Positions 2,558 through 6,175 of a stretch of 64,000 nt of DNA are shown piece by piece. Within the stretch, counting starts at the first letter, position 1, and each line of letters begins with the position of its first letter. The DNA is from Rosistilla ulvae (GTDB lineage: Bacteria; Planctomycetota; Planctomycetia; Pirellulales; Pirellulaceae): the NCBI RefSeq assembly GCF_007741475.1, contig NZ_CP036261.1, positions 2,170,001 through 2,234,000 on the forward strand, in the 5' to 3' direction. The notes under the pieces are model-generated. The model was not told the DNA's origin. It did no database searches and saw nothing but the letters and a program-made list of their open reading frames with translations. The translations under genes and the position numbers were made by a program.

Positions 2558-2582
2558 AACCACCGGTTTTGCACCGGTGGTT
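2558..2582 (-). terminator. Hairpin overlapping the barrel gene stop codon
   Basis: A perfect 10-bp inverted repeat (2558-2567 with 2573-2582) with a 5-nt loop overlaps the TAA of the minus-strand gene ending at 2581. No T-run follows, so intrinsic termination is uncertain; it could instead protect the 3' end. Confidence 0.45.
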
Positions 2583-3552
2583 AATAGTGATATTCCAGTC
2601 CCACAGTTGCTCCGTGGTAGAAGACACTGTCGGAGGCGTCGACGCCGTGCGGGGCGAGGAAGTTCGAATGGACCAGTTCATCCGAGGCGACGGCAACCGA
2701 TGTGACCCACATGACTTGGTAGCCCGCCACAAAATCCAGCTGGCTGGTCAGACTTCTGCGTGCATTTAGCCCCAGTTCTGCCAGAAAAGAGAGCTTCCCA
2801 CGGTTCCCCGCATCACGAGCCTGAGCGATTCCCGTGTCGTACAATGTCGATTGTTTCGCGGCATTGCCGAAAAGACCGACCTGACTAAAGCCGTCAAGCG
2901 ACCAGTTCCCTCTACGAAACAGGTTCGATTCTAGGCCAACCTGTCCGCCGTACAAACGGTTTTGCGCCGCGGTATCGATCGATGTTGGCGTCCCTCCCGA
3001 TTCAAAACCAAAGCCGATCCGATCGTCGATCTCCAGATATCGAAGTCCTGTGGTGAAGCGGAGCGATTCAGTCAACCGCCGACTGATTCCAAGTTCCAGG
3101 CTATGCAAGTCGGATGTGTGAACGCCTTCGATCGACGTGACATCGGGAAAGGCCACCGGTAAGGGGACATTCAGGACTGCGACGCTTGCCGGTCCGACCA
3201 GATCGCGATGGCTTTCACTCCATTGATCGACACTCATCCATCGCACGGTCAACGCAGTGCAAGCATCTAGGTTGTAGCGACCATTGAGTTCGTAGCCTGC
3301 CTGAAATCCCAAATCGAATTCGTTGGAATCAAAGTTGCCGTTGGGGCCCCAGAAAATTCGATTGTCGTCGTCGACCCGCTCCAAAAACAATGCCTTGGCA
3401 CCAAAGCTCCATCTCGCCGGCGCACTGCATCCAACGGCGTCACAACCACTTGAGGCATCACATTCAAATTGTCCCTGCGCGATGGAAGTGAGCCCCATCG
3501 ACAAGAGGAACCAAGCAGCTACTTGAAATCGTTTTCGATGGAACTTCAGCAT
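2581..3552 (-). CDS. Secreted outer-membrane beta-barrel protein (BBP7/Lpg1974-like)
   Basis: 323 residues with a Sec signal peptide (FQVAAWFLLSMGLTSIAQGQ) and a short Cys-containing linker (FECDASSGCDAVGC). The rest alternates in beta-barrel fashion, with strand-like segments such as GFQAGYELNGRYN, SLELGISRRL, GGQVGLESNLF and a terminal GATVGLEYHY. A C-terminal aromatic residue is typical of BAM-inserted barrels. The Trp/Gly motif ARWSFGAKALFLERVDDDNR near the mature N-terminus is characteristic of planctomycete BBP7-like proteins. Function unknown. It is transcribed alone. Confidence 0.65.
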   Translation of the reverse strand: MLKFHRKRFQVAAWFLLSMGLTSIAQGQFECDASSGCDAVGCSAPARWSFGAKALFLERVDDDNRIFWGPNGNFDSNEFDLGFQAGYELNGRYNLDACTALTVRWMSVDQWSESHRDLVGPASVAVLNVPLPVAFPDVTSIEGVHTSDLHSLELGISRRLTESLRFTTGLRYLEIDDRIGFGFESGGTPTSIDTAAQNRLYGGQVGLESNLFRRGNWSLDGFSQVGLFGNAAKQSTLYDTGIAQARDAGNRGKLSFLAELGLNARRSLTSQLDFVAGYQVMWVTSVAVASDELVHSNFLAPHGVDASDSVFYHGATVGLEYHY

Positions 3553-3863: not shown

Positions 3864-5546
3864 CTACAGTCGGACGCGGCGGTTGCCGAAGGCTTTGCCC
3901 AGACGGATGCTGTTCCACGAGGCATGCACGGGAGTGTCGGTGCCGGAGAATTCGCGGATAAAACTGCCACGCCGCATCGCGCGTGGTGTGGGAGGCGGCT
4001 GTCGCATCGCCCGCAGGATCTCCTGCTCGCTGACAATCTGCTCGGTCTCACCCGCCGATTCCAGCAGCAAGTAGTACCCGTCGGATGAGAGTTCGTGGTA
4101 CTTGATGTCGAGCTTGCGGTTGGCCGGCAACGGCAGGTTCGGGCCCGCTTGTTTCAACAACATCCTCTTGGTCACCCAGTCGATGCGGCCGACAAGGATC
4201 GTGCGATCACCGGCTAATCCATCCAGCACATCGCTCCACCGCTGCAGCACTTCATACGCTTCGTCGGGCCGATTTTTGTTCGACTCCACAAATCGGCGGC
4301 AAGCGGCTTGGTACCATCGCTGGACGTCGAGTGCTGTCATCGGTCGGCCGTTGTGGACGGCGATCGCACGCTCGATCGGTTCGTCCCGAACCACAGCTTG
4401 CAATGCGCGCAGCGGTCGCCGAACGCGCGGTGGATTTTGGATCGCGCCCGCTTCGATCGCATCGATCATCAATGTGGTCGTGGCGAGCCGCAGATATTCC
4501 GCCTCCTCCGCCATGTTGCAGTCTCCCAAACAGACTTGCATCCGTTGGCGTGAACCCAGGTTGCTGAAGAGGTCCATCGGATTAAACCATCCGATCAGGC
4601 AAGCATCCATCAGATGGGCGACGCTGAACAAAGGATAAGCGTGGTTTCCCAGCGGTCCAAAGATAAATCGCAGCACGGGGGCTTTCTGAGCCAACAGGAA
4701 ATCACCGCTATCGGAAACCCAACCGCTTCCCGAGAGGATCGATCGGCTGACCAAAAACGGCGTCAACATTCGGACATGTCGACGATACAGACAGAACCTA
4801 GCAGCGACGATGATCGTCAACAGCATTGGGCTCAGCGCGATCATCGCCACGCGGTTGAGCGCTCGTTCGACCGAGCGTGGGATCGGCGTGGCATCTTCGG
4901 ATGTGTCGAATCCATCACCGAAGAACTTACGGAACAATTCCGCACGCTGCCCGCTGTCGGTTCGCATCACAGCAAACGGATAGACCGCCACAGCAATCAA
5001 CAGGTACGCGGGGATCGCGACGATCACCAACGGGACCATTATTACCCAAAACAGTAGACAGATCGTCGCCGCTAACAACAAGATGCCACGCCAACACGCG
5101 AGCCCCAGCCAGCCGGTGACTTGAATCTCGTAGTTCTCGTGAGTGCCGTAGGCGTTCCCTTGGCTGTCGCGGCTGTTCTTGATCAAGACCATCTCGCCGT
5201 CGTCGCGACAACTGGCCGCCGATTCGCTCAGCAAACGATCTTGAGCACGCTGCCATATCAAGGCATCGCGTGGGCTTTGGCATTCGGGCGTCGCCGCTTC
5301 GATCAGACCAAAACCGCCCGCATGTAGAACGCGTTCGAAACCGATCGTGCCGCCGTTGGCTGTAAAGTGCTTCTCTTCCAAGACGCTGCCGGTCGCGGTC
5401 GGCAATCGTTCCCGGAACTTCTCCAACAGCGAGCGATAGAGTTCGATCTGTTTGACGGGCGGCCCGTCTTGGTGCGGCCGAAAGCGGATCGCGTATTCGG
5501 TCTCCAGCCCCAGTAAGCGTTGAAAGATTGGAGCGTTGGTTTTCAA
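3864..5546 (-). CDS. Membrane-inserted PafA/Dop-family (Pup ligase-like) enzyme
   Basis: 560 residues from a TTG start (5546); an in-frame stop lies just upstream, and GLETEY at residues 13-18 sits as near the N-terminus as in PafA. Family motifs run in order: GLETEY, ATPEC (85-89), KNSRDSQGNAYGTHENY (123-139), LTPFLVSR (261-268), GDCNMAE (341-347), TALDVQRWY (404-412), RIDWVTKR (454-461), KLDIKYHEL (478-486) and QPPPTPRAMRRGSFI (516-530). PafA/Dop enzymes use ATP to attach, deamidate or remove the Pup modifier. Between the HENY strand and LTPFLVSR lies an insertion of about 115 residues with long hydrophobic stretches at about 148-193 and 232-254, predicting membrane anchoring. The long Dop loop is absent. 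The catalytic Asp after NGG seems replaced by Glu71. It is preceded by the Gly-Gly-Glu small gene; no proteasome gene is nearby. Confidence 0.85.
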   Translation of the reverse strand: MKTNAPIFQRLLGLETEYAIRFRPHQDGPPVKQIELYRSLLEKFRERLPTATGSVLEEKHFTANGGTIGFERVLHAGGFGLIEAATPECQSPRDALIWQRAQDRLLSESAASCRDDGEMVLIKNSRDSQGNAYGTHENYEIQVTGWLGLACWRGILLLAATICLLFWVIMVPLVIVAIPAYLLIAVAVYPFAVMRTDSGQRAELFRKFFGDGFDTSEDATPIPRSVERALNRVAMIALSPMLLTIIVAARFCLYRRHVRMLTPFLVSRSILSGSGWVSDSGDFLLAQKAPVLRFIFGPLGNHAYPLFSVAHLMDACLIGWFNPMDLFSNLGSRQRMQVCLGDCNMAEEAEYLRLATTTLMIDAIEAGAIQNPPRVRRPLRALQAVVRDEPIERAIAVHNGRPMTALDVQRWYQAACRRFVESNKNRPDEAYEVLQRWSDVLDGLAGDRTILVGRIDWVTKRMLLKQAGPNLPLPANRKLDIKYHELSSDGYYLLLESAGETEQIVSEQEILRAMRQPPPTPRAMRRGSFIREFSGTDTPVHASWNSIRLGKAFGNRRVRL

Positions 5547-5655
5547 GAGCTTCGCCTGCCGGGGTGCGCAAATTCAAACAGCACGCCCCGACGGGCTGAT
5601 TCGGTCGGGCGGTGATCGATCGCCGCCCCACCCTTTAAAAGATTCGCCGATCGAT

Positions 5656-5811
5656 TTATTCGCCGCCGTCGGGAACGACAACCTCGTCCAGATATCGCTG
5701 CGGTTGATCTTGGGCATCGACGGCGACTCGGTCGATGATCTGTTCCAAGGTTTGCGGTTGAGGCAACGTTTCGCTGGTCTGCGGTGCTTCGAGAATGGTG
5801 TCCGTCTTCAC
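5656..5811 (-). CDS. Pup-like small protein ending in Gly-Gly-Glu (putative modifier)
   Basis: 51 residues from GTG at 5811, in an open frame that extends further upstream. This start is chosen because AGGAG lies 7 nt before it and because a TATAAT promoter places the transcript start near 5876, after all upstream ATG codons. The N-terminal half is polar and rich in Pro, Gln, Thr and Glu with no predicted fold. The C-terminal part has an amphipathic LEQIIDRV stretch and ends RYLDEVVVPDGGE. Actinobacterial Pup has the same plan: about 60 residues, disordered and acidic, with a short helical C-terminus ending GGQ or GGE. A final Glu would need no deamidation. It sits 109 nt upstream of the PafA-like gene on the same strand. 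The role as a protein modifier is inferred. Confidence 0.65.
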   Translation of the reverse strand: MKTDTILEAPQTSETLPQPQTLEQIIDRVAVDAQDQPQRYLDEVVVPDGGE

Positions 5812-5818
5812 AGGGGCG

Positions 5819-5823
5819 CTCCT
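5819..5823 (-). promoter_or_regulatory. Shine-Dalgarno AGGAG of the Pup-like gene
   Basis: AGGAG on the minus strand lies 7 nt before the GTG at 5811. It is the site that fixes the 51-codon reading over the longer upstream readings. Confidence 0.7.
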
Positions 5824-5883
5824 GAATCGATAGGTGATCGGATACAATGGGCGATGCGGAATCGTTCCCACTCCATTCGCTTG

Positions 5884-5912
5884 ATTATAGAAGAAAGATT
5901 TGCGGGTCACAA
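5884..5912 (-). promoter_or_regulatory. Sigma-70-type promoter for the Pup-like/PafA-like genes
   Basis: On the minus strand TTGTGA (5912-5907, 4 of 6 matches to TTGACA), a 17-nt spacer and a perfect TATAAT (5889-5884) predict a start near 5876, giving a leader of about 65 nt before the GTG at 5811. No other promoter this good was noticed in the region. Confidence 0.6.
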
Positions 5913-6175
5913 TCAAGTGATTTCGCGGTGTGGGGCGTTGGGCGAACTGGGCAAATCTTGCCAGCAGGCTCTCCCCCATCGAGCAACGCCGCAAAGCGTT
6001 TTTCGTTATAGAGGATGCCGGTTCTCGGCCGTAGCGGAAGTCGTCAAGACTTTCGATCCACGGCGAGTCTTCCTTCCGAAACTCTTGACGAGTTCCGCGA
6101 CGCAATGGTTCACCAATTTTATATCTGATCTTCCAACCACCACTCCTGTTCACACAATCCGATCCCCTTTTATTT

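Follow-up and report, generated by a model that had tools for sequence, protein, structure and literature searches.

To our knowledge, pupylation is known from experiment only as a tag in actinobacteria, where it is mostly tied to the proteasome. The actinobacterial system comprises the modifier Pup, the ligase PafA, the depupylase Dop, Mpa/ARC and the 20S proteasome. A membrane-associated form was predicted by Iyer, Burroughs and Aravind (2008, PMC2588565), whose passages on these genes report, for Rhodopirellula and Plesiocystis, a Pup together with Pup ligases in which core strand 4 is followed by a transmembrane insertion; no proteasome genes are linked to them, and membrane-associated proteins are proposed as pupylation targets. 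A single-copy planctomycete relative of Dop and PafA has also served as an outgroup (Hecht et al., PMC7947786). Here we describe two neighbouring genes of this kind in the planctomycete Rosistilla ulvae, one for a small protein with a Pup-type C-terminus and the other for a PafA/Dop-family enzyme with a hydrophobic insertion. They lie in the window, the whole stretch of 64,000 nucleotides that was analysed (C1:2170001-2234000 of the 7.48-Mb, single-contig complete genome). Gene pairs of this kind were already predicted in 2008, and they are established here as real and widely conserved. It is probable, in our view, that the two genes alone make up a pupylation-like system at the cytoplasmic membrane, on its inner face, because the enzyme is single and the modifier ends in GE.

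As in the passages of Iyer et al. (PMC2588565) on this system, a small protein with a G[EQ] end is paired with a PafA relative whose insertion follows strand 4, no proteasome genes are linked to the pair, and membrane anchoring is predicted. The original prediction had supposed that this pairing and topology might be new; both were described there, and that claim finds no support. The two accounts differ in that four transmembrane segments and a linked membrane-protein gene were reported in 2008, whereas we find two hydrophobic blocks and no neighbour common to the clades, and in that the Pup gene was said invariably to adjoin the PafA gene, whereas four Rhodopirellula-type genomes, other than the example species of those authors, carry it away from the enzyme gene. 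The outgroup of Hecht et al. (PMC7947786) shares with our enzyme its phylum and its position outside PafA and Dop, but the main text of that paper does not use the word transmembrane, and its passages on these enzymes name no paired small gene. Shared with actinobacterial pupylation are the glutamine-synthetase-type core, the GxETE motif and a small, partly disordered modifier with a GG[EQ] end; the planctomycete system differs in having one enzyme per modifier rather than a ligase and a depupylase, a membrane insertion, an apparent Glu for the catalytic Asp, a GE end only, and no Mpa/ARC or 20S detected in this genome. In the literature searched, with most subscription papers and every bioRxiv preprint outside it, we found no experiment on the membrane form; as far as that literature goes, it is new that the partner is retained when unlinked, that the end is strictly GE, that Glu aligns in place of Asp, that one genome lacking a detected proteasome has two separate pairs, and that the range of hosts is wider. 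The features of the locus are as follows.

5884..5912, minus strand: sigma-70-like promoter of the small gene, TTGTGA, 17 nt, TATAAT (10/12 consensus matches)
5819..5823, minus strand: AGGAG ribosome-binding site, 7 nt 5' of the GTG start (read from sequence)
5656..5811, minus strand: small Pup-like modifier gene, GTG start, 51 residues, C-terminus ...YLDEVVVPDGGE (open reading frame, profile match, conservation)
5547..5655, minus strand: leader between small gene and enzyme, 109 nt, predicted fold (shuffle comparison)
3864..5546, minus strand: PafA/Dop-fold enzyme with membrane insertion, 560 residues, TTG start at 5546 (PF03136, model, tree)
4968..5105, minus strand: hydrophobic stretch 1 of the insertion, residues 148-193 (hydropathy; model helix 146-194)
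4788..4874, minus strand: hydrophobic stretch 2 of the insertion, residues 225-253, then a strongly basic stretch (hydropathy; model helix 224-253)
5334..5336, minus strand: codon of Glu71, which aligns with the catalytic Asp of PafA/Dop (alignment: E 80/81, D 1)

The arrangement claimed beforehand was confirmed: a 51-codon gene with a TATAAT promoter-like site, an AGGAG site and a Gly-Gly-Glu end (...VVVPDGGE) stands 109 nt upstream of the enzyme gene on the same strand. That the small frame is linked to the enzyme far beyond chance is clear from other genomes. A scan of named genomes with an alignment of the enzyme gave 121 confirmed relatives, and among the best 80 of the 121 loci, 58 have a same-strand short frame with a G[EQ] end immediately before the enzyme gene. 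Where 500 nt of upstream sequence was present the frame was found at 56/75 loci, compared with 24/919 control windows, and the terminal residue was E in 57/57 upstream frames (57 from 56 loci, as one locus has two, one of them probably by chance), whereas the control frames ended in E in 10 cases and in Q in 14. We collected 63 tails (the 58 linked loci, the two of R. ulvae itself and three from relatives) by a search that required G at -2 but not the final E, Q being allowed; all 63 end in GE and none in GQ. The expected conservation of the frame and its ending was thus borne out for GE, but GGE is present in only 46/63. Further inward, D occurs at -20 in 59/63 and Y or F at -12 in 61/63, with hydrophobic residues at -23, -26 and -27 in 94-98%. 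A profile made from these tails gave no other strong match in the loci (next best E 1.1), and comparison of neighbouring genes across clades found none that is shared, so two genes may suffice. The chance that the frame is a random opening beside an enzyme gene is negligible, given its conservation across phyla and its co-occurrence with the enzyme.

Co-occurrence was followed in 60 related genomes, that of R. ulvae included. PF03136 is present in 21/60, comprising 21/37 of its own family and 0/23 of the order's other families. An alignment of 16 small proteins (A2) matched, at E<=0.01, 20/21 of the enzyme-bearing genomes and 0/39 of the enzyme-free ones; at E<=0.05 it also matched in three enzyme-free genomes, there falling short of the C-terminus. 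Fourteen of the 20 matched genomes are independent, four having supplied rows of A2 and two more being congeners. The genome missed (G011) has a divergent linked gene, and in G005 the contig end cuts both the matching frame and the enzyme, leaving the tail outside the sequence. A single PF03136 copy occurs in 16/21 enzyme-bearing relatives, R. ulvae and two congeners (G000, G001, G002) have two enzymes and two small genes each, and G010 and G025 have three PF03136 genes each, one of them of membrane type, with one A2 match each. In the genomes counted there is one small-protein partner for each enzyme copy. In the four Rhodopirellula-type genomes searched, with 1, 1, 1 and 2 enzyme copies, the small gene is unlinked yet present (E 4.2e-6 to 0.008) and its product ends in SGDGE or HDGE. 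In TBK1r and Roseiconus the next gene after the unlinked small gene (L160:3637-4443, L163:2331-3242) codes for a protein that has a single hydrophobic stretch at its N-terminus and a likely coiled coil; it is perhaps the membrane-protein gene mentioned by Iyer et al., and none like it was seen beside the unlinked small gene in CA13 or K23_9. A wider draw of 392 genomes from the phylum, R. ulvae among them, held PF03136 in 37, with A2 matches in at least 10/37 of these and in at least three others, the latter short of the C-terminus. The 27 non-matches carry no weight for absence, because A2 is narrow, candidates were scored in part and the 37 include tandem PafA/Dop-like systems. In this draw a GE-ended frame was found at 9/29 loci, the enzyme frame having been wrongly picked in several.

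The enzyme had been assigned to the PafA/Dop family with a membrane insertion; the family held, and a hydrophobic insertion is indeed present and common to its relatives. Residues 10-547 match PF03136 (Pup_ligase) at 2.3e-80, with 271 bits against a cut-off of 25. It is neither PafA nor Dop proper, scoring 174.1 bits on the PafA equivalog model TIGR03686 (cut-off 551.3) and 181.9 bits on the Dop model TIGR03688 (cut-off 492.3); the planctomycete tandem enzymes likewise fall below both cut-offs. A model built from 55 sequences (predicted local distance difference test score, pLDDT, 92.5; predicted template modelling score, pTM, 0.92) has a predicted glutamine-synthetase-type fold as in Dop and PafA. 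The nearest solved structure is Dop 4b0r (Z 47.9, 408 residues aligned, 2.2 Å, 31% identity), PafA 4bjr gives Z 40.8 (415 aligned, 2.8 Å, 25% identity) and YbdK only about 22. Residues kept in 73-81 of 81 sequences are the GxETE motif, E83, D127, [QH]136xN138, R268, R335 and K460.

The insertion comes directly after core strand 4, the model placing strand 136-142 before helix 146-194. Its two hydrophobic blocks have mean Kyte-Doolittle values of 1.66 and 1.28 over 81 sequences, and at a threshold of 1.5 block 1 is recognised in 80/80 related enzymes and block 2 in 68/80. The loop between them is net acidic and the stretch past block 2 strongly basic (K+R 22%), a charge pattern that would fit two membrane crossings. 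The number of crossings must be even, because both halves of the catalytic core have to share one side of the membrane, and we infer from the use of adenosine triphosphate that this is the cytoplasmic side.

In trees the membrane enzymes form one group with respect to the PafA and Dop rows, with support of 100/99 (20 membrane and nine other rows) and, in a second tree, of 100/94 (51 and eight); the former gives no resolution among its nine other rows, and in the latter three groups meet. The hosts are Planctomycetota together with assemblies labelled Myxococcota, Acidobacteriota, Spirochaetota, Bdellovibrionota and Pseudomonadota, most of them metagenome assemblies, so that some phylum labels may be wrong. 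In enzymes of other planctomycete families (L125, L126, L128-L131 and others) some 60-105 residues interrupt the Pfam match near profile position 360-370, and the enzymes of the tandem systems of G073, G106 and G107 are split at that same position.

The small protein has 51 residues and a Pup-type C-terminus. Its model, based on five sequences and of low confidence (mean pLDDT 71, pTM 0.36), has one helix at 22-35 and another at 37-41; ahead of residue 22 there is neither helix nor strand, and the tail is free.

A second PafA/Dop gene had been said to be missing from the window, and none is found in the 64 kb; elsewhere in the genome, at C1:670874-672466, lies a second PF03136 gene with a small gene of its own, and beyond these two pairs there is no other PF03136 gene in the genome. 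In this pair B (L002, G000:C1:669374-673966; L110) a 55-residue small protein ending in QQQGE accompanies a PF03136 enzyme that also has a hydrophobic insertion. The tail is VPDGGE in pair A, the pair of the window, and TQQQGE in pair B, and since the enzymes fall in different clades the two look like old, separate pairs and not a recent duplication. Judged by eye, tail type tracks the enzyme tree: GGE tails characterise the clade of pair A and the clade of other phyla (with one exception, L108, DGE), and the clade of pair B has GE tails other than GGE. A more ambitious reading, which we hold to be unlikely, is that the pairs form two parallel, mutually orthogonal and proteasome-free membrane tagging systems, each with its own dedicated modifier and ligase, the ligases belonging to a third enzyme family, distinct from PafA and Dop and with Glu for Asp, whose targets could include a membrane amine (for example an aminolipid, as in Atg8-like lipidation) as well as proteins.

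The reported lack of proteasome genes can be extended from the window to the whole genome, in which no Mpa/ARC or 20S was detected. The Mpa/ARC model finds AAA cores only (best 142.9 bits, at positions 172-385), whereas in three control genomes with tandem PafA/Dop-like systems it reaches 291-313 bits, near full length, beside their enzymes. The sole proteasome-fold match (PF00227) in the genome we assign to HslV and not to a 20S subunit, because the gene adjoining it reads as hslU. Among five other genomes with the membrane pair, G012 and G447 have no proteasome-fold match and G029, G446 and G448 weak ones of 24-30 bits.

If the pair is indeed a pupylation-like system, the modifier would be mostly disordered, with two short amphipathic helices in its last 30 residues and then a flexible Gly-Glu tail. 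The enzyme, with its glutamine-synthetase/PafA-type core anchored at the membrane through the insertion, would ligate the terminal Glu, in the manner of Pup, to an amine on the cytoplasmic side. A separate deamidase would be unneeded because the modifier already terminates in Glu. The tag would not be fed to a proteasome and its role would be non-degradative in that sense, altering the activity, location or turnover of the target.

Several observations weigh against this proposal. Of the membrane tagging system originally envisaged, the pairing and the Pup-like character hold, and ligase activity is presumed. The core has more in common with Dop, a hydrolase, than with the ligase PafA, both in structure (31% versus 25% identity) and in sequence (149 versus 98 bits), and the trees, which have no true root, put the enzymes outside PafA and Dop without telling the nearer neighbour. 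The catalytic Asp (PafA D64) appears to be replaced by Glu71 (E in 80/81 sequences, D in one), the position being fixed by the neighbours listed for it in Hecht et al. (PMC7947786); the PafA-Pup structure itself carries D64N (PMC8599861). The switch between ligase and hydrolase has been tied to the alpha-loop and to residues flanking this Asp (Hecht et al., PMC7947786), and beside it the membrane enzymes differ in alignment from both PafA and Dop. The small protein resembles Pup weakly: it can be aligned to the C-terminal 30 residues of two actinobacterial Pups, with a gap of one residue, at an hhalign probability of 11% and a pairwise E of 0.0028. It has no Pup match in Pfam or NCBIfam, nor was there a Pup profile match for seven small proteins searched against NCBIfam or for 16 members against Pfam; the GGQ-ended small protein of the G073 tandem likewise has none in NCBIfam. 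Linkage is incomplete, since of the 22 loci without an upstream frame only two lie at contig ends, 19 (Rhodopirellula/Rubripirellula/Stieleria/Roseiconus-type enzymes) have no small gene near the enzyme despite available sequence, and one, the proteobacterial L062, has no small frame upstream. The 49-residue helix is too long for one crossing, and the crossings may number two or four. Finally, none of 15 genomes, tandem controls included, reaches the Mpa/ARC cut-off of 504.75 bits, and the tandem genomes G071, G073 and G106 also have no PF00227 match, which makes the absence of a divergent proteasome less sure.

Other explanations have to be considered beside the pupylation-like one. It is known from LysW that a C-terminal Glu can carry a biosynthetic intermediate, and the small protein might in the same way be a peptide carrier, its terminal Glu being coupled at the membrane to a small amine, for instance an amino acid or amino-lipid, and not to a target protein. 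One enzyme per small gene, the GE end in 63/63 tails and the membrane insertion would suit such an amidoligase, the superfamily otherwise makes small amides, and any target protein for the tag is hypothetical. It is nonetheless unlikely, as no biosynthetic genes are common to the neighbourhoods across clades, the core finds its best matches in Dop/PafA (Z 37-48; YbdK reaches 22) and the small protein has Pup-like helix spacing. The closeness to Dop in structure and sequence, and trees that leave both options standing, could also point to a Dop-like hydrolase that removes a small protein attached by an unrelated ligase, or to an enzyme that both adds and removes it. With no PF03136 gene here beyond the second pair, and one copy in 16/21 enzyme-bearing relatives, a pure hydrolase would have no known ligase to work with, and the GE end requires no deamidation; we think this reading decidedly unlikely.

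That every enzyme copy in the genomes counted has a partner, and that tail type tracks enzyme clade by eye, would also be expected if the small protein were a regulatory subunit or inhibitor, never conjugated, its tail merely filling the active site. Yet its terminal residue is the most fixed part (E in 63/63, with Q allowed), as expected of an end that reacts, and such a role seems very improbable. A defence system was considered and rejected, neither protein having a PADLOC match, and so was a module borne by plasmid or phage: a viral_contigs scan gave no relative, and the plasmid and phage collections yielded two actinobacterial records and one record respectively, each about half length and of 30-31% identity. 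The phage record (L185, MT835496.1, Bacteriophage sp., from faeces), with Dop, Pup (GGQ) and PafA together, is probably an actinobacterial chromosome fragment, and the 11.85-Mb Nonomuraea record filed as a plasmid (L184, NZ_LT559118.1), with dop and pup, looks like a chromosome.

The tandem PafA/Dop-like pair of G073, which we take to be of the UBact type, resembles the membrane system in phylum and in having a small modifier gene alongside enzymes of the Pup_ligase family, but has two enzymes, a GGQ end and an adjoining ARC-like ATPase, and in alignment its enzymes have no membrane-type insertion after strand 4. A divergent tandem PF03136 pair, one member with a long C-terminal extension, lies beside a small protein ending in NRSGQ or NSSGQ (L115 and L116, in G010:C75 and G025:C394; L026-L029), and in G010 and G025 it coexists with a membrane-type pair. 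In G010 an ARC-like match of 81 bits overlaps the next gene.

Within the R. ulvae locus, the promoter-like site was found once against a mean of 0.2 in shuffles; it is a consensus match whose function is predicted. The leader, tested over 5540-5660, has a folding z of -2.80 against shuffles, and the TTG of the enzyme is the sole ATG/GTG/TTG from the upstream stop to the GLETEY motif. The small gene matches its profile at 1.0e-15, its own sequence being one of the 16 rows. Positions 5820-5919, the promoter region, are identical in both congeners and the 109-nt leader has 2/109 differences from each; divergence from the congeners over promoter, small gene and leader (5520-5920) is far below that of the enzyme. 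Congeners share a very highly conserved nucleotide sequence in the small gene, and recombination may be the source of this, because conservation is patchy elsewhere too. Downstream neighbours at 323-1729 and 2581-3552 encode a 468-residue protein without Pfam match, presumably a neutral ceramidase relative, and a BBP7-type outer-membrane porin.

A conserved, proteasome-free, membrane-anchored form of pupylation in Planctomycetota and in the metagenome assemblies labelled with other phyla, if true, would suggest signalling roles for small-protein tagging in bacteria, and it would reveal a function of this enzyme core outside the PafA/Dop split. With two genes, clear partners and cultured hosts, the prediction made in 2008 is now open to direct test.

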